NCBI RefSeq assembly: GCF_041435495.1
Contig: NZ_CP108644.1
Span: 6,619,501-6,683,500, forward strand
DNA from: Streptomyces sp. NBC_01116
GTDB taxonomy: Bacteria; Actinomycetota; Actinomycetes; Streptomycetales; Streptomycetaceae
DNA: 64,000 nucleotides
Direction of reading: 5' to 3'
This document shows, in pieces, positions 9,136 through 35,267 of the stretch (position 1 is its first letter; every line of letters begins with the position of its first letter). The position numbers and the translations under genes were made by a program. The notes under the pieces are model-generated. The model did no database searches. It saw nothing but the letters and a program-made list of their open reading frames with translations, and was not told where the DNA came from.

Positions 9136-10307
9136 GCCTGGCCGGTGCCGCGTCGTCGGCGCAGTGCCAGCACTCCGGCCACGGCCAGGAGTGCCCCGCC
9201 GCCCAGGGCGGTGACGGGCACGACGGGGAAGCCGTCGCCCGAGGCGAGGCCGCCGAGGCCGGCGCCGACGCCACCGTCGGGGTGGAGCGAGTCAGCCTGG
9301 TTGACGGCCGCGGTGTTGGGCAGCGCCACGTACGGGAAGGTGTCACCCGGCTCGCGGTAGGGCGTGTCGACGGCATCGCCGGCTGCCAGGGCGGGCACGA
9401 TCTTCCCGGTCTGAGCGGCGCCTTCGAGGGCCTGGAGCTCGATGTCGACGACGTCGTCGTTGAGCCGGCGGCCGTTGGGGAAGCCGGCCAGGTCCTTGCC
9501 CAGGACGCCGAGGCGGTTGGGCTTGGCGGCCGGCGGGACGGCCATGTTCAGGCGCAGCATTTCCGCGGGAACGACCGCGGCCTTGTCGACGTCCTGGTTG
9601 AGGCGCTGCGAGTTGAGGTCCGCCTTGATCGGACCGCACTCCTTGCAGATCCCGGTGAGGAAGATCTCGACGAGGTCGTTGCGCGGCGTGGCGGGGGCGG
9701 GGACCTTGTAGATGTTCTGGATGAGCTTGGGGACGATGGGGTCCTTGACCTTGTCGACGACCGGGGTGACGGTGGCGTCCTTCTCCGGGCTGAGCGAGTT
9801 AAAGGCGTCCTTGTACTTCAGCGGCACGACGACCTCGTTGACGAGCGGATTGCCCAGGCGCGAGACCTGCCGCCAGTCGTCGGCGTTTCCGTCCTTGGCG
9901 GGTGTCCCCTGCGCGTCCTTCGCCTTCGCGTCCTCGCTGCCCTTGCCGGCTGCGCCCGTGACGTTCGCTCCTCTACGGTCGGTGGTGGACCACACACCGA
10001 TGACGGGGTTGCGTTTGGCGTCGTCCTTGAGCGCCAGCGTCGACTTGGGCACCTGGACGGCGAGGGTGTTGATGTTGTAGCCGGCCAGTGTGTTGTGGCC
10101 GGTCTCCGAGAGGTCGCCCCCGTACAGGAGGTCGAAGATCCGCAGGTCCAGGAAGAACGGGTCGGACGCCTGGCCGGCGAAGGTCGTGCCGCCGCCCGGC
10201 AGCGGAACCACGGCCTCCTTGCGGAGGGAGGCGTAGTCGGGCATCGACGCCTTGCCGACGTTCGAGGGTGCGACCGGGGAGTCCTTCAGGAGCGTCTTGG
10301 TGTTCCC
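9132..10307 (-). pseudogene. DUF4331-domain protein, 5' end deleted
   Basis: From about 10307 the frame aligns with the internal part of the complete DUF4331 paralogue at 13906-15516 (here TLLKDSPVAPSNVGKAS, there TLLSGMPAAPSRTGKAS; both continue MPDYASLRK, DPFF, VFDLLYGGDLSE in the same order). It ends in a membrane segment (VTALGGGALLAVAGVLAL) and RRRR tail. About the first 190 residues, including signal peptide and the SSHREAP motif, are missing. Upstream of 10307 the sequence belongs to another gene. Without export signal the product should not reach its usual location, but the frame is otherwise undamaged and overlaps the sortase gene. Confidence 0.8.
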
Positions 10308-13905: not shown

Positions 13906-15516
13906 TCAGCTGTCCTTGCCCCGGCGGCGGAGGCGGAAGCCGCCGACGCCGAGAAGGAGCGCGCCCGCGCCGGCGAGCGCGGCGGCCTGGGTGGTCTTCG
14001 TGACGGGGGTCGCCGCGGTGTTCTCCATCGAGGACTGCTCGGCGGTGCGGCCTGCCGCGCCGGGGCCGCGGTTGACGTTCTTGGTGTGCGGCAGCGCGAC
14101 GTAGGGGAACGAGGCGCCGAACGGGACCTCGTTGGCGTCGACCTTGTCGCCGTCCGCGAGTTCGGGGACGAGAACGCCGGTCTGGGCGGCGCCCTCGACG
14201 GCCTGGAGCGAGATGTCGACGACGTCGTCGGCGAGGCGTCGCCCGTTCGGGAAGCCGGCCAGGTCGCCCGCCAGAACTCCGAGGCGCTGGGGCCTGGCGG
14301 TGGGCGGCACCGCCATGTTGAGGCGCAGCTCCTCCGCCGGGACGATCTTCCTGAGCGCCGCGTCCTTGTTGAGGCGGTGTGCGTTCAGATCGGCCTTGAT
14401 CGGGCCGCAGACCTTGCAGATGCCCGTCAGGTAGATCTCGGCGAGGTCGTTACGGGGCGTCGCGGGGGCGGGGATGCCGTAGACCTGCTGGATGAGCTTG
14501 GGCAGGATCGGGTCGTACACCTTGTCGACGACGGGCTGAACGGTTCGGTCCTGGCTCGGGTTGAGGGTGTTGAAGGCGTCCTTGAACTTCAGCGGGACGA
14601 CGACCTCGTTGACCAGCGGGTTCCCGAGGCGGGAGACCTGCTTCCACTGCTTCGCGTCGCCCTTGCCCTTCTTGTCGCGGGAGTCGGTGACGGTGACGCC
14701 CGCGCGATCGGTGGTCGACCACACGCCGACCACCGGGTTGCGAGAGGTGTTGCCCTTGAGGGCCAGCTGCTTCTTGGGGACCTGGATGGCGATGGTGTTG
14801 ACGTTGTAGCCGGCCAGGGTGTCCTGCCCCCGCTCGCTCAGGTCGCCGCCGTAGAGGAGGTCGAAGACGCGCAGGTCGGCGAAGAACGGGTCCTCGGTCT
14901 GCCCCGTGTACGTCTTGCCGCCGCCCGGCAGACCGAACGTCGCCTGCTTCCGCAGCGAGGCGTAGTCGGGCATCGAAGCCTTGCCCGTGCGGGACGGGGC
15001 GGCCGGCATGCCCGACAGGAGCGTTCGGCTCTTTCCTCCGGTCGTGACGACCAGGTCGTAGACCTGGCGGAAGTTCAGGTCCGGGTCGTTCAGCGAGGTG
15101 ACCTGGCCGGTGTTGTAGAGGAACTGGTTCGCGTCATCGCGGTAGCTGCCGCGGAAGCGCCAGCTGTAGGTGACATCGGCGACCCCGTCACCACTGTTGT
15201 CGATCTTGATGTTGTAGCGCAGGTCGTCACCGAACGCGTAGAAGTTCGGGCCGCCGTTGGGCTCCTCCATCGGGATCCAGTTCGCCACCATCGTGACCGT
15301 GTCGGCCTTGTCGGGGCTGGTGAACGCGTACACGTCGGTGTTGTCCGCCCGCGGGTCCCCGGCGATCAGGGGCGCCTCGCGGTGGCTGGAGGCCGCGCTG
15401 AGACCCGGGGCGAGGGTCATCGCTCCGAGTCCTGCGGCCAGGGTGGTGGCACCGAGCACGAGCAGGGACTGGTCCAGGACCCTCCGCGAACGGGGCCTGT
15501 CCTGTGAAACCTTCAC
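13906..15516 (-). CDS. DUF4331-domain membrane-anchored exported protein
   Basis: 536 residues from GTG 15516, selected because AGAAGGAA stands a few bases upstream; the ORF extends further but without signal-like sequence. A signal peptide at residues 1-40 (RRVLDQSLLVLGATTLAAG) is followed by SSHREAPLIAGDPRADNTD, the start of DUF4331, with repeated DVYAF, DDLRYNIKIDNSGDG, DPFFADLRVFDLLYGG and ICKVCGPIKADLNAHRLN. The C-terminus has a single helix (AAALAGAGALLLGVGGF) and RLRRRG tail. The family's function is unknown. It heads a cluster with TPR, NicO, a second DUF4331 and a class F sortase. Confidence 0.88.
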   Translation of the reverse strand: MKVSQDRPRSRRVLDQSLLVLGATTLAAGLGAMTLAPGLSAASSHREAPLIAGDPRADNTDVYAFTSPDKADTVTMVANWIPMEEPNGGPNFYAFGDDLRYNIKIDNSGDGVADVTYSWRFRGSYRDDANQFLYNTGQVTSLNDPDLNFRQVYDLVVTTGGKSRTLLSGMPAAPSRTGKASMPDYASLRKQATFGLPGGGKTYTGQTEDPFFADLRVFDLLYGGDLSERGQDTLAGYNVNTIAIQVPKKQLALKGNTSRNPVVGVWSTTDRAGVTVTDSRDKKGKGDAKQWKQVSRLGNPLVNEVVVPLKFKDAFNTLNPSQDRTVQPVVDKVYDPILPKLIQQVYGIPAPATPRNDLAEIYLTGICKVCGPIKADLNAHRLNKDAALRKIVPAEELRLNMAVPPTARPQRLGVLAGDLAGFPNGRRLADDVVDISLQAVEGAAQTGVLVPELADGDKVDANEVPFGASFPYVALPHTKNVNRGPGAAGRTAEQSSMENTAATPVTKTTQAAALAGAGALLLGVGGFRLRRRGKDS

Positions 15517-15999
15517 GGCATTCCTTCTGTCTGCTGACCCCTGCCGGGCATGCGTCGAGGCATGCGAGAGCGAGGGGCGGGCTGATGGAGATGGCGTCCG
15601 GTGCCGCAGAGGGAGATTGCGAACCGAGCGGTCTGGCAGGAAAGGGCCGATCGACGGGGCGGCTCGAAACGCGGGCCCGTCAGCACCCAAAGACTGCGCA
15701 GCCGTAGACAAGCACGCCGAAACCCAGACCCCCACCCACTCCGACCGGACTCCCAGGTCGGGCACGCGGTCCACGAAGGGTGAACAGGCCGGTGGGAGCG
15801 GTGATGCAGCCGAACGACACCCCAGGAAAATCCGCGACGACACAGGCGCCGACCACTGGGCCGAAAGGGGCACACCCGCCTTATTGCAAGCCACTCGCAA
15901 TAAGATCTGCGGGAGAATTCACTCTTCCGGCGCACCGCGCTCAGTCGAGGGCCCTCAGCCAGGGCCATGATCAATCCCAGCGCTACTCTCTACCGCAAC
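15517..15999. other. Intergenic region upstream of the DUF4331 operon
   Basis: About 480 bases, expected to hold the operon promoter. The frames on both strands lack motifs. It is bounded on the right by a MITE-like repeat. Confidence 0.35.
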
Positions 16000-16095
16000 T
16001 AAGGGCTCGCAGAGAATCAACATGCTGTCGAGCACCCGGCCTGAGCTGCGATGTCAAGACAGACAGCACGCAACTTATTCTTCTGCGAGCCCTAA
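16000..16095. repeat. MITE-like element, about 90 bp with 11-bp terminal inverted repeats
   Basis: GGGCTCGCAGA at 16003-16013 is the exact reverse complement of TCTGCGAGCCC at 16082-16092. A nested pair TGCTGTC (16023-16029) and GACAGCA (16062-16068) extends the symmetry. TAA lies on both sides (16000-16002 and 16093-16095), as expected for a 3-bp target duplication of IS5-type elements. It has no coding capacity. The right TAA is shared with the neighbouring IS. Confidence 0.55.
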
Positions 16096-17144
16096 CGAGC
16101 TCGTGCACGGTAGGCGGTGAGACGTCGAGGCTGTCGGCGGGGCTCGGTGTTCACCTCTGCCGTGTCGACGTCAGGTCCGCGGTCTGCTGATGGGACAGCA
16201 GGCCGGCGACGGCTTGGACGGTGTCGCTCATGTGCTCGCGGCGGCCGAGGTGGCGGGCCAGGGCACGCCAATTCTTCAGATGGGCGATGCCGTGCTCGAC
16301 CCGGATCCGCCTTGAGGAGTGTGCCTTGCGCTGGCGTTCGTACATCTCCTCGTACCAGTCCGGGGCGTTCTTCTTGAACTTGCGGTGTGCTGGTGTCACC
16401 ACCCGGCCGCCGGTCTGCGCGCCAAGGCCCTGGTAGCCGGCATCGGCGAGAATCTCGACCGCGGGCCCGTCGGCCAAGAGCTTGACCAGCCCTAATTGGC
16501 GGGCGTGAGTGATGTCCGCGCAGCTTGCGGGTCGTGCTGGGCTGCACCACAGCACGCGGCCTTCGGCGTCCGTGACCACCATGGACTTGACGGCGTTCTG
16601 CTTGTTCTTGCCGGAGATGAACTTGTCGCGGTCCTTCCGTCCGGCGGCGGGCCGACGGACCCGGATCTCGGTGCCGTCGATGATGCCGGTCGTCCCGCTC
16701 GCGCCGAGGTGGTCGACGACGTCGGCCAGAGTTCGCAGCCGCACGTCGGGGCTGACCGTGCAGCCTCGCTCGGCGAGCAGGGGCCGCACCTCGCCGACGG
16801 CCCGGGTGATGGTGGAGCGGTCCACGCCGAACCAGCAGGCCAGCACGTCGTGGGTGACCCCGTGACGAAGATGGACGAGTGTGGCCAGCAGCCGATCGAC
16901 AAACACCAGCCGGTGCTTTGCGCCGGCGCCCACGGCCCGCTTCCGTGGCCGGGAGGTGAGCCGGGCCTGGTGACGCTCTTGCCACAACGGGCCGATCTCC
17001 TCGACGAGTTCAGCAATCACTCCCACAGGCAGGCCCGTGATCCGCCGATTGCTGATGATCACCGCACGCGTTGAGTTCCCCACCACAAGACCATGATCGA
17101 GGATCAGGAGCTCGACGTCTCACCGCCTACCGTGCACGAGCTCG
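16096..17144 (-). mobile_element. IS5-type insertion sequence, intact, 1,049 bp
   Basis: Perfect 34-bp terminal inverted repeats at 16096-16129 and 17111-17144 (outer ends CGAGCTCGTGCACGG). TAA on both sides (16093-16095, 17145-17147) forms a 3-bp target duplication. It contains one transposase ORF on the minus strand. Intact ends, duplication and ORF suggest recent insertion and possible activity. Confidence 0.92.
16151..17086 (-). CDS. IS5-family DDE transposase
   Basis: 311 residues, undamaged. An N-terminal helix-turn-helix region (LVHLRHGVTHDVLACWFGV, STITRAVGEVRPLL) is followed by the DDE core: D in GIIDGTEIRV, D in EILADAGYQG and E in RVEHGIAHLKNW, with KFISGKNKQNAVK between the first two. 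This is the HARBI1-like/IS5 group architecture. It catalyses cut-and-paste movement of the enclosing element. ATG 17086 lies 59 bases inside the right inverted repeat. Confidence 0.92.
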   Translation of the reverse strand: MVGNSTRAVIISNRRITGLPVGVIAELVEEIGPLWQERHQARLTSRPRKRAVGAGAKHRLVFVDRLLATLVHLRHGVTHDVLACWFGVDRSTITRAVGEVRPLLAERGCTVSPDVRLRTLADVVDHLGASGTTGIIDGTEIRVRRPAAGRKDRDKFISGKNKQNAVKSMVVTDAEGRVLWCSPARPASCADITHARQLGLVKLLADGPAVEILADAGYQGLGAQTGGRVVTPAHRKFKKNAPDWYEEMYERQRKAHSSRRIRVEHGIAHLKNWRALARHLGRREHMSDTVQAVAGLLSHQQTADLTSTRQR

Positions 17145-17367
17145 TAAAGGCTGTTGCAAAACTGGATGAACGACGAATATCCGCCATGATCCGAGTTCTC
17201 ACAGGGGCGTCAACTTGCCCGCTTCTGGGAGTGCTCGTGACGCCGACTGTGAAGTGCTCCGCGACCTTCAACCTCCTTCTGTAACGGCCTTTAGGGCGGG
17301 TATCGGAAGTCTCAGGTAAGAGATGTTCGAGGGACATCTGTGGGTCAGAACGCTCGGATGGCCTGTT

Positions 17368-17873
17368 CGAGACCCCCCGGTTAGTCGTGCGTCGTTGGCG
17401 CGCGGATGACGTTGTGCCCATGGCTGCTTTCAATGCGGATCCCGAGGTGATGCGGTGGATCGGTGATGGCAGTGTCCGTGACGAACAGCAGACTCGCCGT
17501 GAGGTTGAGGCGATGGAGCGCGAGTGGGACAGGCAGGGCTTCGGCCTGTTCGCCATGGAGATCCGCTCGACGGGCGAACAGGCCGGGTCACCGGTCTTTC
17601 GGTTCCCGACTTCATGCCGGAGCTCTTGCCTGCGGTTGAGATTGGCTGGCTGCTGGGGCGTGCCTACTGGGGGCAGGGCCTGGCCACGGAGGCCGCTGCG
17701 GCTGCAGGCTGGGCCGGATTGGCAGCATCGTCCAGTTCGACAACGGCGCCTCTGAACGAATCGTGACGAAACTGGGGATGCATCCGGTCGGTGAGACCGT
17801 CGATCCCAGTTGTGGTCGTCGAGTGCGGGTGTTCGAACTGTCATCGGACCAGTACGTCACGACCACTCGTTGA
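17368..17873 (+). pseudogene. GNAT acetyltransferase, frameshifted
   Basis: Three frames together give a RimJ/RimL-type GNAT protein: LFETPRLVVRRWRADDVV, ADPEVMRWIGDGSV, then after a shift near 17590 EIGWLLGRAYWGQGLATEA (the acetyl-CoA-binding region), and after another shift near 17710 SERIVTKLGMHPVGETVD. Sequence between the last two pieces is shortened. At least two frameshifts make it non-functional. The 3' end runs into an IS5 transposase remnant on the other strand. Confidence 0.7.
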
Positions 17874-22787: not shown

Positions 22788-23294
22788 ATGATGGCAGTCA
22801 CGCATGGACGGCACGTGCCGCGGGCGCGCGTCAGGCTCGACGAGCACGTGCCGGTGGATCACCGTCTGAGCCGCGTCTATCGCGCCGGGGCCGGAATCTT
22901 CGGAGCATTCCTTATCGCGTTCGGTGTCCTTGGTCTGATGCACCGGATCGGCTTCTTCGGTACCGGAGGTGACACCGTCATCGGTCTGAACACGAACGGG
23001 GCCCTGAGCACCCTGTCCATCGTGTTCGGCGCCCTGTTGCTGGTCGGGGCGATCGTCGGCGGGAACCGCGCGTCCACCCTCAACATGATCATCGGTATCG
23101 GGTTCGTCCTCAGCGGCTTCGTGAACCTCGCCCTGCTCGGGACCGACTACAACGTTCTCGCCTTCCAGTTGCAGAACGTCATGTTCAGCTTCGTCGTCGG
23201 CGTCGTGCTGATGACCTTCGGGATGTATGGCCGGGTCAGCGGGCGCCTTCCCCACGACAACCCCTACTGGAAGGCACGTAACCCGGGCAGCTAG
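22788..23294 (+). CDS. DUF4383 membrane protein
   Basis: 168 residues. GGAGGG precedes tandem ATGs at 22788 and 22791; either could be used. Four hydrophobic helices (GAGIFGAFLIAFGVLGLMHR, TLSIVFGALLLVGAIVGG, MIIGIGFVLSGFVNLALLG, VMFSFVVGVVLMTFGMYG) and the NVLAFQLQNV motif identify DUF4383. Function unknown. Its TAG stop is part of the CTAG where the IS701-type element is inserted, so the coding sequence survives intact but its downstream region has been replaced. Confidence 0.85.
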   Translation: MMAVTHGRHVPRARVRLDEHVPVDHRLSRVYRAGAGIFGAFLIAFGVLGLMHRIGFFGTGGDTVIGLNTNGALSTLSIVFGALLLVGAIVGGNRASTLNMIIGIGFVLSGFVNLALLGTDYNVLAFQLQNVMFSFVVGVVLMTFGMYGRVSGRLPHDNPYWKARNPGS

Positions 23295-23316
23295 TACTCC
23301 AGTCTGGTTTCGTGGC

Positions 23317-24666
23317 CTATCCAGCAGGTTCGTCGAGAGACCGCCGACGGTAGTGGCTGCGCCGGGCTGTTGCCTGGTGGCGTCTGCGCCAGATGGACCA
23401 GTGCAGCAGCCTGGCTGCGGTCGCGGCTGGCGGAGCGAAGACCGCGGTGAGCAGATGGCGGATCTCGGGGACGGTCAGGGAGATCGGGTCGCTGTCCTGA
23501 GTCGGGAAGTTCCGGCCAGCGGGTCGGCCGGGGGCCGCGTCGGCGGCGACGGCGGTCAGGAAGGCCAGGGCGAGCATGGCGAGCGTGATGTGCCGGTGCC
23601 ACGATGTCCAGTGCCTGACCTGATAGTGGTCGAGTCCGACCTGGCCCTTGGCGGCCTGGAAACACTCCTCGATGCTCCAGCGGACACCGGCGACGCGGAC
23701 GAGTTCGGCCAGTGTCGCGGTGGTGGGTGACCAGCACAGGTAGAAGGCGAGTTCGCCGGTGGTCCGGTTGCGGCGGATCAGCAGGTGGCGGTGACTTCCG
23801 GTGCCGATGTGGATCCAGGCCCAGTCGTAGTGGCGGTAGCCTTTCGCGCCTCTTCCGGCGCTGTGTCGTTGCCAGGCCGTGGCGGGCAGGCGCCCGGCGA
23901 CGGTGTCCGCGCGGACTGTGGTGCGGCCGTGATTGATCCTCACCCGGGCCGAACAGGCGACGGCCAGCACGTAGCCGGTGCCGCGTGCTTCCAGAACGGT
24001 CCGCAGGTGGGGGTCCTGGCCGTAGGCTTCGTCGCCGGTCACCCAGGAGGCGGCGATCCCGGCGTCCAGCGCGGCGGTGATCATCTCCCCGGCCAGGCGG
24101 GGCTTGGTCGCGAACTCCACCGTCTCGGGTATTCCTGCCTCACGGCGGCGCTCGGGATCGGTGCTCCAGGAATGCTCGGGCAGGTAGAGCCGGCGGTCGA
24201 TCAGGGCCCGGCCCCGGGTGGTGGCCAGGGAGAGGAACACACCGACCTGGGCGTTCTCGATGCGTCCGGCGGTGCCCGTGTACTGCCTCTGCACTCACGC
24301 CGAGGACCGGCCCTTTTTCAGGAAACCGGTCTCGTCGACGACGAGAACAGCATCGTCGGTGCCGAGGTGTTCGGCGGCGTAGGAACGCAGGTCGTCGCGG
24401 ACCGCATCGGCGTCCCATCGGGCATACCTCAGCAGACGCTGCAGGGGCCCGGGCCGCTTATGCCCCGCTCGTTCGGCCAGCTGCCAGCAGTTCTTCCGCT
24501 CGACGCCCGTCAGTAGCCCGAGCAGGTAGGAACGGGCCGCCGCCCGGGGCTCAACGCGCCCGAACCTGCCCGCGATCCGGGCCATGACCTGGTCGAACAT
24601 CGCCCGCCATCGGTCAGGGTCTACGCTATGGCCTGCGGCCACCGCACGATCTTCGGGAGTCCACAC
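23317..24666 (-). pseudogene. IS701-family transposase split by an in-frame TGA, copy 1
   Basis: Part one (24666-24295, 123 residues) contains the first catalytic Asp in VLVVDETGFLKKG and ends RSSA, then TGA. Part two (24294-23317) resumes in the same frame with GTG, VQRQYTGTAGRIENAQVGVF, then the second Asp in WVTGDEAYGQD and the Glu in WSIEECFQAAKGQVGL. In the family the residue at the TGA is normally Gly, so one base change explains the stop. The sequence TGAGTG would allow restart on the second part. I label it a pseudogene, but both copies share the stop, so function as two polypeptides or by read-through is possible. Confidence 0.8.
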
Positions 24667-24758
24667 AACCCCTGATCATCTCGCGGCGGCCGCCCGCGTC
24701 AGGCGCTGCCGTACTGGCCGTCGTCGCCTGGGCCATCGAGAGACTGCACACCGGAGTA

Positions 24759-25478
24759 CTAATCCGCTTGCAGTACGAAGAACAGGAAGCGCGGCTCGGC
24801 CGCGATGGCCTCGGGGAACAGCTCGCGGGCGGCGGGATCAGGCTCCGGCTCGCTGATGACCGTAATCCGGAAACCGGCCCCGGTGAAAGCCTCAATCATC
24901 GCGTGCAGCGGCCTGTTCCAGCGACTCACCAGGGTGGTCTGGCCGCCCATGCTCCACTCTACGGTCCACTTGGTGGTGTCGAAGTAGTCGCACTCGGCCT
25001 CGCGACCGGCCTCACGGTGAATGAGGTTGACGGCAAAGGGATGGTCGACAGACGCGATCAGCCGACCGCCGGGCCTGAGTACGCGTCGCAGCTCGGCCAG
25101 CGCCGGCCCCCAGTCCTCCAGGTAGTGCAGCACCAGCGACGCCACTACATCATCGAACGTGTCATCAGGGTAGGGAAGCGGGCTGCCCAGCTCCGCCACC
25201 TGCAGATCCGCACCGTCGCCGAGCCGCTGCCGAGCCAGCCCCAGCATCCCGGCACTCGAGTCGAAACCACTCACAATGGCGCCACGGTCACGCAGCGCGG
25301 CAAACAAGGCCCCCGAGCCACAGCCCGCGTCGAGGATCCGCCGGCCAGCCACGTCTCCAGCGAGGGTCAGCATCGCGGGACGCTCGTAGTAGGCATTGAC
25401 CAGGTTGGTTTCGTTCGCAGCCGTGTACGCCTCGGCGAAGCTGTTGTAGTCGTTGGTCTTCGACGGATCCACACTCAC
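24759..25478 (-). CDS. Class I SAM-dependent methyltransferase (IS passenger), copy 1
   Basis: About 239 residues from GTG 25478; the frame is open upstream to 25616, and no good ribosome site decides the start. Motif I is RRILDAGCGSGALFAALRD, with SGFDSSAGMLGLARQRL next, then PDDTFDDVVASLVLHYLEDW (motif II region) and LRRVLRPGGRLIASVDHPF. Rossmann-fold small-molecule type, substrate unknown. The stop codon TAG is formed at the border with the internal IS end. It is not a transposition gene, so it is cargo. Confidence 0.85.
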   Translation of the reverse strand: MSVDPSKTNDYNSFAEAYTAANETNLVNAYYERPAMLTLAGDVAGRRILDAGCGSGALFAALRDRGAIVSGFDSSAGMLGLARQRLGDGADLQVAELGSPLPYPDDTFDDVVASLVLHYLEDWGPALAELRRVLRPGGRLIASVDHPFAVNLIHREAGREAECDYFDTTKWTVEWSMGGQTTLVSRWNRPLHAMIEAFTGAGFRITVISEPEPDPAARELFPEAIAAEPRFLFFVLQAD

Positions 25479-25925
25479 CGAGGACGGTGAAACCAACCTG
25501 GTGGAAAACGTGTGCGCTTGGTGCTCGCCTGAGGTCATGGTGCAGGAGACGTGTGCTGCAGTAGATCGGTTCCTGGCCCGACCATCAATATGCGTGCCCA
25601 CAGAGCCCGCCTGCAACTGCGGCTCGAATCAACGAATTTCGGGCACGTCCGGGCGCAGTCGACCCGCACGTGATCACGAAACCACACTGGAGTACTAGCC
25701 GCAGAAATCCGCAGGGCACTCGCCGCTGTGACCTGACCCACCCCTCCGGGCTCCTGCTCCTTTGGCGGGGTGCGGCTGCTGTCAGGACAAAATCGCTCGC
25801 CACTGCGTAAGGGTGTCGCGCAGTTGCTGCGTTCCGGTCACCCGTTCGGCATGAAGACGTCGATCTGCATTTCCATATCGGCCCTGGCGTGGCTCTGACC
25901 AGCGACGGGTTTACCTCGGCGCGCT

Positions 25926-32784: not shown

Positions 32785-33030
32785 CAGCGGCTGCTCCGAG
32801 TCCGCCCCGCCTAGTACTCCAGTGTGGTTTCGTGATCACGTGCGGGTCGACTGCGCCCGGACGTGCCCGAAATTCGTTGATTCGAGCCGCAGTTGCAGGC
32901 GGGCTCTGTGGGCACGCATATTGATGGTCGGGCCAGGAACCGATCTACTGCAGCACACGTCTCCTGCACCATGACCTCAGGCGAGCACCAAGCGCACACG
33001 TTTTCCACCAGGTTGGTTTCACCGTCCTCG

Positions 33031-33750
33031 GTGAGTGTGGATCCGTCGAAGACCAACGACTACAACAGCTTCGCCGAGGCGTACACGGCTGCGAACGAAA
33101 CCAACCTGGTCAATGCCTACTACGAGCGTCCCGCGATGCTGACCCTCGCTGGAGACGTGGCTGGCCGGCGGATCCTCGACGCGGGCTGTGGCTCGGGGGC
33201 CTTGTTTGCCGCGCTGCGTGACCGTGGCGCCATTGTGAGTGGTTTCGACTCGAGTGCCGGGATGCTGGGGCTGGCTCGGCAGCGGCTCGGCGACGGTGCG
33301 GATCTGCAGGTGGCGGAGCTGGGCAGCCCGCTTCCCTACCCTGATGACACGTTCGATGATGTAGTGGCGTCGCTGGTGCTGCACTACCTGGAGGACTGGG
33401 GGCCGGCGCTGGCCGAGCTGCGACGCGTACTCAGGCCCGGCGGTCGGCTGATCGCGTCTGTCGACCATCCCTTTGCCGTCAACCTCATTCACCGTGAGGC
33501 CGGTCGCGAGGCCGAGTGCGACTACTTCGACACCACCAAGTGGACCGTAGAGTGGAGCATGGGCGGCCAGACCACCCTGGTGAGTCGCTGGAACAGGCCG
33601 CTGCACGCGATGATTGAGGCTTTCACCGGGGCCGGTTTCCGGATTACGGTCATCAGCGAGCCGGAGCCTGATCCCGCCGCCCGCGAGCTGTTCCCCGAGG
33701 CCATCGCGGCCGAGCCGCGCTTCCTGTTCTTCGTACTGCAAGCGGATTAG
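33031..33750 (+). CDS. Class I SAM-dependent methyltransferase (IS passenger), copy 2
   Basis: Same protein as the copy-1 methyltransferase (DAGCGSGALF, VLRPGGRLIAS, HPFAVNLIHREAG). Start again uncertain: GTG 33031 or 33037, with an open frame back to 32893. A perfect 14-bp inverted repeat (33007-33020 and 33097-33110) brackets the start. The duplicate means the host carries two doses of the gene. Confidence 0.85.
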   Translation: MSVDPSKTNDYNSFAEAYTAANETNLVNAYYERPAMLTLAGDVAGRRILDAGCGSGALFAALRDRGAIVSGFDSSAGMLGLARQRLGDGADLQVAELGSPLPYPDDTFDDVVASLVLHYLEDWGPALAELRRVLRPGGRLIASVDHPFAVNLIHREAGREAECDYFDTTKWTVEWSMGGQTTLVSRWNRPLHAMIEAFTGAGFRITVISEPEPDPAARELFPEAIAAEPRFLFFVLQAD

Positions 33751-33842
33751 TACTCCGGTGTGCAGTCTCTCGATGGCCCAGGCGACGACGGCCAGTACGG
33801 CAGCGCCTGACGCGGGCGGCCGCCGCGAGATGATCAGGGGTT

Positions 33843-35192
33843 GTGTGGACTCCCGAAGATCGTGCGGTGGCCGCAGGCCATAGCGTAGACCCTGACCGAT
33901 GGCGGGCGATGTTCGACCAGGTCATGGCCCGGATCGCGGGCAGGTTCGGGCGCGTTGAGCCCCGGGCGGCGGCCCGTTCCTACCTGCTCGGGCTACTGAC
34001 GGGCGTCGAGCGGAAGAACTGCTGGCAGCTGGCCGAACGAGCGGGGCATAAGCGGCCCGGGCCCCTGCAGCGTCTGCTGAGGTATGCCCGATGGGACGCC
34101 GATGCGGTCCGCGACGACCTGCGTTCCTACGCCGCCGAACACCTCGGCACCGACGATGCTGTTCTCGTCGTCGACGAGACCGGTTTCCTGAAAAAGGGCC
34201 GGTCCTCGGCGTGAGTGCAGAGGCAGTACACGGGCACCGCCGGACGCATCGAGAACGCCCAGGTCGGTGTGTTCCTCTCCCTGGCCACCACCCGGGGCCG
34301 GGCCCTGATCGACCGCCGGCTCTACCTGCCCGAGCATTCCTGGAGCACCGATCCCGAGCGCCGCCGTGAGGCAGGAATACCCGAGACGGTGGAGTTCGCG
34401 ACCAAGCCCCGCCTGGCCGGGGAGATGATCACCGCCGCGCTGGACGCCGGGATCGCCGCCTCCTGGGTGACCGGCGACGAAGCCTACGGCCAGGACCCCC
34501 ACCTGCGGACCGTTCTGGAAGCACGCGGCACCGGCTACGTGCTGGCCGTCGCCTGTTCGGCCCGGGTGAGGATCAATCACGGCCGCACCACAGTCCGCGC
34601 GGACACCGTCGCCGGGCGCCTGCCCGCCACGGCCTGGCAACGACACAGCGCCGGAAGAGGCGCGAAAGGCTACCGCCACTACGACTGGGCCTGGATCCAC
34701 ATCGGCACCGGAAGTCACCGCCACCTGCTGATCCGCCGCAACCGGACCACCGGCGAACTCGCCTTCTACCTGTGCTGGTCACCCACCACCGCGACACTGG
34801 CCGAACTCGTCCGCGTCGCCGGTGTCCGCTGGAGCATCGAGGAGTGTTTCCAGGCCGCCAAGGGCCAGGTCGGACTCGACCACTATCAGGTCAGGCACTG
34901 GACATCGTGGCACCGGCACATCACGCTCGCCATGCTCGCCCTGGCCTTCCTGACCGCCGTCGCCGCCGACGCGGCCCCCGGCCGACCCGCTGGCCGGAAC
35001 TTCCCGACTCAGGACAGCGACCCGATCTCCCTGACCGTCCCCGAGATCCGCCATCTGCTCACCGCGGTCTTCGCTCCGCCAGCCGCGACCGCAGCCAGGC
35101 TGCTGCACTGGTCCATCTGGCGCAGACGCCACCAGGCAACAGCCCGGCGCAGCCACTACCGTCGGCGGTCTCTCGACGAACCTGCTGGATAG
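33843..35192 (+). pseudogene. IS701-family transposase split by an in-frame TGA, copy 2
   Basis: Identical organisation to copy 1: GTG 33843, TGA at 34212-34214, immediately followed by GTG in the same frame, then the part with the second Asp and the Glu. The shared defect shows the copies derive from one another after the mutation, or were homogenised by recombination. Confidence 0.8.
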
Positions 35193-35267
35193 GCCACGAA
35201 ACCAGACTGGAGTACTAGCCCGAATAGCCCGCCCGGTCCGGCCTGCTGCAACCTGCATGGCCTGACG

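Follow-up and report, generated by a model that had tools for sequence, protein, structure and literature searches.

The elements described below have their closest known relatives in two families of insertion sequences (IS), the ISAzo13 family and the IS5 family. IS5-type transposases are expected to grip the ends of their own elements via an N-terminal helix-turn-helix region, and iso-IS231 elements insert into the terminal repeats of the transposon Tn4430, with which they are not known to share a transposase domain. The ISAzo13 family, which includes ISScl2 of Streptomyces clavuligerus and ISRop2 of Rhodococcus opacus, is reported to be over-represented in Actinobacteria, with the orientations of neighbouring genes normally spread (PMC9208149). 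IS1202-family elements of the ISAjo2 type target pdif/dif sites (PMC10132070), ISPpu9 and ISPa11 target REP sequences (PMC1525189) and iso-IS231 elements are, by the title of a work cited in PMC6542083, associated with Tn4430. The ISAjo2-type elements resemble those studied here in their fixed relation to a recognised site and differ in that the target is a Xer recombination site; the REP-targeting IS resemble them in their repeat-directed insertion and differ in that the repeat is a short extragenic palindrome and no captured transposase domain is mentioned in the abstract; and the iso-IS231 elements are alike in being associated with the ends of another transposon.

Three elements in a row were found at positions 16000–17290 of the window, by which we mean the whole stretch of 64,000 nucleotides of Streptomyces sp. 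NBC_01116 that was analysed. The order, confirmed base by base, is TAA (16000–16002, the outer target duplication), a 90-bp unit on the forward strand (16003–16092), a TAA common to this unit and the next (16093–16095), an IS5-type element of 1049 bp on the reverse strand with 34-bp perfect inverted repeats (16096–17144) and a TAA (17145–17147) common to the latter and a third element; the preliminary description had given the arrangement up to this TAA correctly to the base. The 90-bp unit carries perfect terminal inverted repeat tips of 11 bp, GGGCTCGCAGA, at 16003–16013 on the forward strand and at 16082–16092 on the reverse strand, and its left 25 bases are those of ISAzo13-family element ends. 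The IS5-type element, our neighbour type A, encodes a transposase of 311 amino acids (16151–17086, reverse strand) with the Pfam domains DDE_Tnp_4 and HTH_Tnp_4, the latter at residues 58–109. Its match to PF13359 (79.4 bits) and the 34-bp repeats are those of an IS5-type element, and it is called no more than IS5-type because it misses the NCBIfam cut-offs for IS5 equivalogs (69.2 bits against NF033581, cut-off 140). The flank after the last TAA, AGGCTGTTGCAAAAC, had also been suspected to be an IS-like end, and it is indeed the start of a 143-bp MITE (type C; 17148–17290, forward strand) with the imperfect inverted ends AGGCTGTTGCAAAAC and AGGCCGTTACAGAAG, which is followed by TTA and set between TA(A) and (T)TA. 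Each of the three elements has a TNA in common with the next one.

By itself the 11-bp tip is no rarity, the window containing 4 matches at one mismatch or fewer where 3.25 are expected, and the second end of the third element, with 4 matches in the window at up to three mismatches and 1.6 expected, would not stand out alone. The third element has one relative, 80% identical, among 362 genomes when its own is set aside; this relative, in a genome of the same genus (G071), has almost perfect ends and adjoins another type C end. In an empty-site comparison, homology of the region to its nearest relatives ends at about position 15944, 56 bp ahead of the cluster, and resumes near 18416 in L346, the sole relative in which resumption was seen. 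Directly after the cluster, at 17387–17866, lie short reading frames of a GNAT acetyltransferase, probably a pseudogene.

The window holds several other repeats. A perfect inverted repeat of 2412 nt (23290–25701 and 32808–35219), with its own inverted ends of 24–28 nt and its copies 7.1 kb apart, probably represents two identical insertion sequences bracketing a segment in the manner of a composite transposon. Two diverged copies (72–79%) of a DUF4331 gene region lie at 9366–10228 and 14137–14957, with a spacing of 4.7–4.8 kb, and five overlapping direct repeats at 1763–2606, 68–74% identical to the reference copy and mostly spaced at 126 nt, probably encode a repeat protein.

To judge from its sequence, the 90-bp unit is an ISAzo13-type MITE, having the ends of full-length members of the family, no coding capacity and dispersed copies with target duplications. 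The genome contains five full copies, that of the window and four others which are identical among themselves (90/90 bases) and 84% identical to the window copy, two short matches of 29 and 17 nt being left out of the count. Chance symmetry is ruled out by the fivefold occurrence of the full-length unit. The searches suggested in the preliminary description, for further copies and for a full-length IS with the same ends, yielded these four copies, matches in related genomes and ISAzo13-family elements of about 1.75 kb in other Streptomyces; its view that the first two elements of the cluster do not derive from each other also holds, the 90-bp unit being ISAzo13-type and the 1049-bp unit IS5-type.

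At an E value of 1e-5 the unit matched 17 of 295 genomes of the genus, some of them via the ends of full-length elements only. The first 28 bases of the query, TAA included, were matched at 100% in five genomes, and several matches in the genus comprised the first 26–28 bases only; most of the loci that were read further proved to be ends of elements of 1.57–1.77 kb with the same inverted repeats. In G113, G123 and G248 the second end of an element of 1.57–1.76 kb was located, and in four loci (L033, L040, L041 and L042) a credible second end was looked for and none was found. The left-end pattern, allowing up to two mismatches, occurred in 77 of 392 genomes of the genus; its reversed form, used as a control, gave no match. 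The transposase at L034 scored 590 bits against NF033519 (cut-off 200) and 486 bits against PF07592 (cut-off 26.9), scores that assign it to the ISAzo13 family. A single PF07592 match (487.5 bits) is present in the own genome of the window, in an intact frame of 579 amino acids, and the ends of this element differ slightly from those of the MITE. A transposase of the ISAzo13 family would move the 90-bp MITE in trans.

The 61 complete ISAzo13 elements that we collected combine terminal inverted repeats with a short TNA duplication; an identical T.A stands on both sides in 42 of them, and in 16 of the 19 others a TAA at one end is paired with a TTA at the opposite end. The ends of the window MITE are identical to those of ISAzo13 elements with type A-like modules (see below) and it is placed at a type A end; the tip of the four other MITEs is a different one, and these are placed at type B ends. 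A 40-bp form consisting of two ISAzo13 ends back to back was observed at five loci in four genomes (L095, L114, L159, L172 and L173).

All six ISAzo13-type copies found in the own genome, five MITEs and one full-length IS, adjoin the end of another element through a common TNA. In the four other MITEs the same MITE end is followed by TAA and then by a GGGCTGTCCCGYAA-like type B end, which belongs in three cases to an element of about 160 bp and in one to a longer element with a transposase gene; the sole full-length ISAzo13 copy also adjoins a type B end. The type B pattern, with up to three mismatches, has 66 matches in the genome, and TAA/TTA sites number about 15,300, as extrapolated from 112 in the window; on this basis, five of six copies at type B ends correspond to a binomial p of about 1e-11.

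The wider sample comprised 116 stretches around ISAzo13-type ends and at least 80 named loci. Among MITEs with both ends, 14 of 19 (five of the 19 being from the own genome) adjoin a recognised IS end, and one further MITE with a damaged end adjoins type D. For the complete ISAzo13 elements, 31 of 61 adjoin an IS5-type end, one adjoins a second ISAzo13 end and in 29 no neighbour was recognised. The figure of 31 is made up of 28 correct regular-expression calls and three loci which the patterns missed and which were added by eye (L158, L248 and L118); the calls at L163, L084 and L300 were false. The regular expressions alone gave 29 of 61, one of them false, compared with 46 of 861 TAA/TTA sites taken as controls from these loci, and 32 of the 46 control matches stem from the broad type A pattern.

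The patterns for the end types were defined after the flanks had been seen, and the one test free of chosen motifs is that of recurrent flanks, in which the first 20 outer bases of a boundary were required to recur elsewhere, the same genome included, with at most five mismatches. Such recurrence was found at 42 of 205 boundaries; when 205 boundaries were drawn 50 times from 2,930 control TAA/TTA boundaries, the number averaged 2.66 and never exceeded 8. A loose search for inverted-repeat partners in the flanks had too high a background, with 29 of 172 boundaries and 131 of 2188 control sides positive. In its strict form, with three NBC_01549 loci of identical flanks merged, 10 of 134 boundaries were positive as compared with 28 of 2190 controls (p 3e-5), and many of these control matches fell on the distal ends of these very neighbours or on other probable IS ends. 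Insertions of ISAzo13 elements and their MITEs are enriched at the ends of other IS. Among the 32 elements with a recognised neighbour, the neighbour lies 3' of the transposase gene in 23, 5' of it in 8 and on both sides in one. As 29 of the 61 complete elements have no recognised neighbour, the preference is perhaps partial; alternatively, neighbours have been lost or have escaped recognition. A recurrent flank of another kind, type G (CTACCCGGCCTTGG), lies directly at ISAzo13 ends in L078, L117, L209, L351 (both sides) and L356; in L351 it contains an inner hairpin, GGCCTTGGGTCAAGGCC. This flank may be an IS end or a terminator, and type G was left out of the typed counts for that reason.

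The preliminary description had offered two explanations for the side-by-side insertions. The preferred TNA hotspot is supported and can be specified further: it is a TNA next to another element's terminal inverted repeat, in most cases that of an IS5-family member. A failure of target-site immunity is not borne out: the neighbours come from different families, a single complete ISAzo13 element among 61 adjoins another ISAzo13 end (L254) and nothing was found that points to immunity.

In the own genome the MITEs inserted after their neighbours, since the four MITEs are identical over all 90 bases while their neighbours differ. The three short neighbours and the neighbour of the full-length IS are 89–98% alike and occur in both orientations, and the fourth MITE has a longer neighbour. 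When type B boundaries were read in the own genome (37 boundaries, from 30 of the 66 places), two had an ISAzo13 neighbour and 35 none that was recognised. A plasmid of Streptomyces sp. NBC_01166 contains an IS5 element, related to that of the window (84% over the match), which carries ISAzo13 copies at both ends, each joined via a TNA and both annotated with the same protein accession, and in L171 MITEs lie on both sides of an IS5 derivative.

The transposases of these elements extend beyond the described family. The ISAzo13 model stops at residue 424 of 582 in the L034 protein, and residues 502–552 match HTH_Tnp_4. Residues 451–579 align with residues 11–135 of the IS5 transposase of the window (16682–17056, reverse strand) at 47% identity over 129 amino acids (blastp, 96 bits); this C-terminal module is homologous to the N-terminal region of IS5-type transposases. 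Most of the actinobacterial ISAzo13 transposases examined have one or two such modules behind the catalytic domain. The proteins resemble those of the known ISAzo13 family members ISScl2, which is 77% identical over the catalytic part, and ISRop2 in matching NF033519 and PF07592; the 387-aa family model does not cover the C-terminal module, and intact non-actinobacterial members measure no more than 399–415 aa. IS5-family elements with HTH_Tnp_4 and DDE_Tnp_4 domains are alike in their N-terminal region, homologous to the module, and differ in that they figure here mainly as targets.

Among at least 80 named actinobacterial loci, one closed extension of 60–200 aa was present in 67 and one of about 290 aa in five, and in the remaining eight of those listed it was short, open at a contig end or longer. 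An extension of about 290 aa was noted at L244, L246, L251, L255, L258 and L352; L244, L258 and L352 each proved to contain two IS5-like modules in tandem, as L246, L251 and L255 presumably do. ISRop2 of Rhodococcus (697 aa) has two modules as well. Compared with a seventh member, six show 73–84% identity in the catalytic part, but their modules have diverged strongly.

Elements without the module were also found. Twelve plasmid regions outside Streptomyces comprised two Rhodococcus copies (697 aa, two modules) and ten non-actinobacterial ones, and the module-less form is represented by six intact annotated copies of 399–415 aa from Proteobacteria and Cyanobacteria (Mesorhizobium, Rhizobium, Skermanella, Oscillatoria and Anabaena), namely L353 and L359 from one strain, L355, L360, L361 and L362. 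The unannotated L354 and L363, the fragment L364 and the truncated L358, which has an IS6-family transposase 174 bp away, were left out. HTH_Tnp_4 was not found in the two module-less members scanned with Pfam, and a transposase gene lay beside none of the six copies, the criterion being annotation rather than end motifs, and with two copies coming from one strain. A phylum-wide search for ISAzo13 gave matches in 11 of 296 genomes, mostly fragments; those in L261, L263, L275 and L281 end 5–33 aa behind the catalytic part, and a search for element ends in these four loci found none.

A tree was constructed from 56 modules and 11 IS5 domains. One clade of 16 rows, the GRPPR clade (SH-aLRT 98), has nine type B neighbours and seven without neighbour, another of 10 rows (SH-aLRT 100) has the neighbours D, D, D2, E and F and five without, and the copies in NBC_01549 adjoin type A ends. 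Neighbour labels, "none" included, required 22 changes on the tree compared with a mean of 26.8 for shuffled labels, none of 200 shuffles being as low, with near-copies inflating the clustering. Considering typed rows (24, with the six copies of NBC_01549 taken as one), type B neighbours occur in 9 of 9 rows within the GRPPR clade versus 1 of 15 outside it. The module clade tracks the kind of end hit, if loosely. With 89 bits, the best score of the NBC_01549 module in the panel is that against the IS5 next to its copies, the window IS5 giving 64; several modules with other neighbours or none also score best against the NBC_01549 IS5. The L185 module scores 40 bits against its own neighbour IS5 and 71 against the window IS5, and the L187 module 66 against its own neighbour and 76 against another IS5. 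Type A-like modules occur at ends of types B, D2, E, F and C (L039) as well, modules of the type B clade are not clearly nearer to IS5-B than to IS5-A domains, and in L178 and L351 the Pfam match to HTH_Tnp_4 lies under the gathering score. As type D and F neighbours carry DUF4096 (PF13340) transposases instead of HTH_Tnp_4, the module need not derive from the element that it adjoins. Moreover, module, catalytic domain and ends have a common history, so that the module is a candidate for the deciding part rather than proven to be it.

The data show that these insertions adjoin other elements, and do so more often than control sites; that the MITEs of the own genome came after their neighbours; that the module is homologous to the IS5 region; and that its clades are loosely associated with targets. 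The likeliest explanation, in which our confidence is moderate, is that the module directs ISAzo13 elements and their MITEs to the ends of IS5-family elements; that it binds these ends and chooses the target is what we infer from its homology. The module would dock on the inverted repeat that terminates a resident element of the IS5 family, placing the catalytic core at the TNA immediately outside; the ISAzo13 element or its MITE would insert into this TNA, duplicating it and leaving equal TNAs on both sides. Insertion of this kind fits the same T.A found on both sides in 42 of the 61 complete elements. Our confidence is lowered by the modules of L185 and L187, which are not nearest to their own neighbours, and by the module-less matches within the phylum.

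Other explanations have to be weighed against this proposal. A targeting module would be unnecessary if each insertion simply left a new TNA in tolerated, intergenic and AT-richer DNA, which would thereby become a general hotspot. The IS5 element of the window adjoining a type C MITE and the relative of this MITE in G071 adjoining a type C end accord with such a process, and type A elements adjoin a non-ISAzo13 IS end in 3 of 30 loci (29 with a readable boundary), so that a weak general hotspot effect exists too. However, this rate is far lower than the 29 of 61 obtained for ISAzo13 elements by regular expression (p 4e-4), the type B boundaries in the own genome gave 0 of 35 with the two ISAzo13 neighbours set aside, and module-less ISAzo13 copies were beside a transposase gene, by annotation, in 0 of 6 cases; we consider a general hotspot unlikely as the main cause. 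Recognition of IS5 ends by the ISAzo13 transposase as if they were its own, both often starting with the G-rich GGGCT or GAGCTCG, gains some appeal from the tips of type B (TAAGGGCTG) and ISAzo13 (TAAGGGCTY), which have eight bases in common, TNA included. ISAzo13 elements should then often be found beside ISAzo13 ends, yet the count is 1 of 61, and types C, D and E are without the common tip, which makes such an error very improbable.

The two partners could also have come together differently. If IS5-family elements sought the TNA next to ISAzo13 ends, the final structure, with equal TNAs at every junction, would be the same as in the opposite order, but the own genome shows identical MITEs next to neighbours that differ from each other and lie in either orientation, ISAzo13 copies sit on both ends of a single IS5, and ISAzo13 neighbours occur at 2 of 37 type B boundaries as against IS or MITE neighbours at 6 of 6 ISAzo13-type copies; we regard this order as highly improbable. 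Lastly, pairs might move as one unit, the adjacency having been made once and then copied, as the joining of the same pair of ends in 3 of 6 copies in NBC_01549 could suggest. There, however, the junction TNA varies between TTA and TAA and both ISAzo13 ends and both IS5 ends are used, and in the own genome the neighbours vary in sequence, kind and orientation, leaving joint movement with hardly any probability.

Returning to targeting by the module, we tentatively suggest, with some doubt, that actinobacterial ISAzo13 elements captured the end-binding region of IS5-type transposases and that lineages with diverged or tandem modules were re-aimed at different families of IS ends. In the titles and beginnings of abstracts of the open-licence PubMed Central literature, a preference of ISAzo13 for IS ends was not found; relative to these sources the target class, the common domain and the association of module and target are new, IS with special targets being already known. 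If the proposal is true, one DDE transposase would include an exchangeable targeting domain acquired from a rival family, in a natural, modular and protein-guided form of retargeting which parks elements in sites that are already occupied and harmless. This would explain the side-by-side pile-up of IS elements in Actinobacteria, and it would show how a mobile element can find safe sites and provide a compact natural model for the retargeting of transposases.
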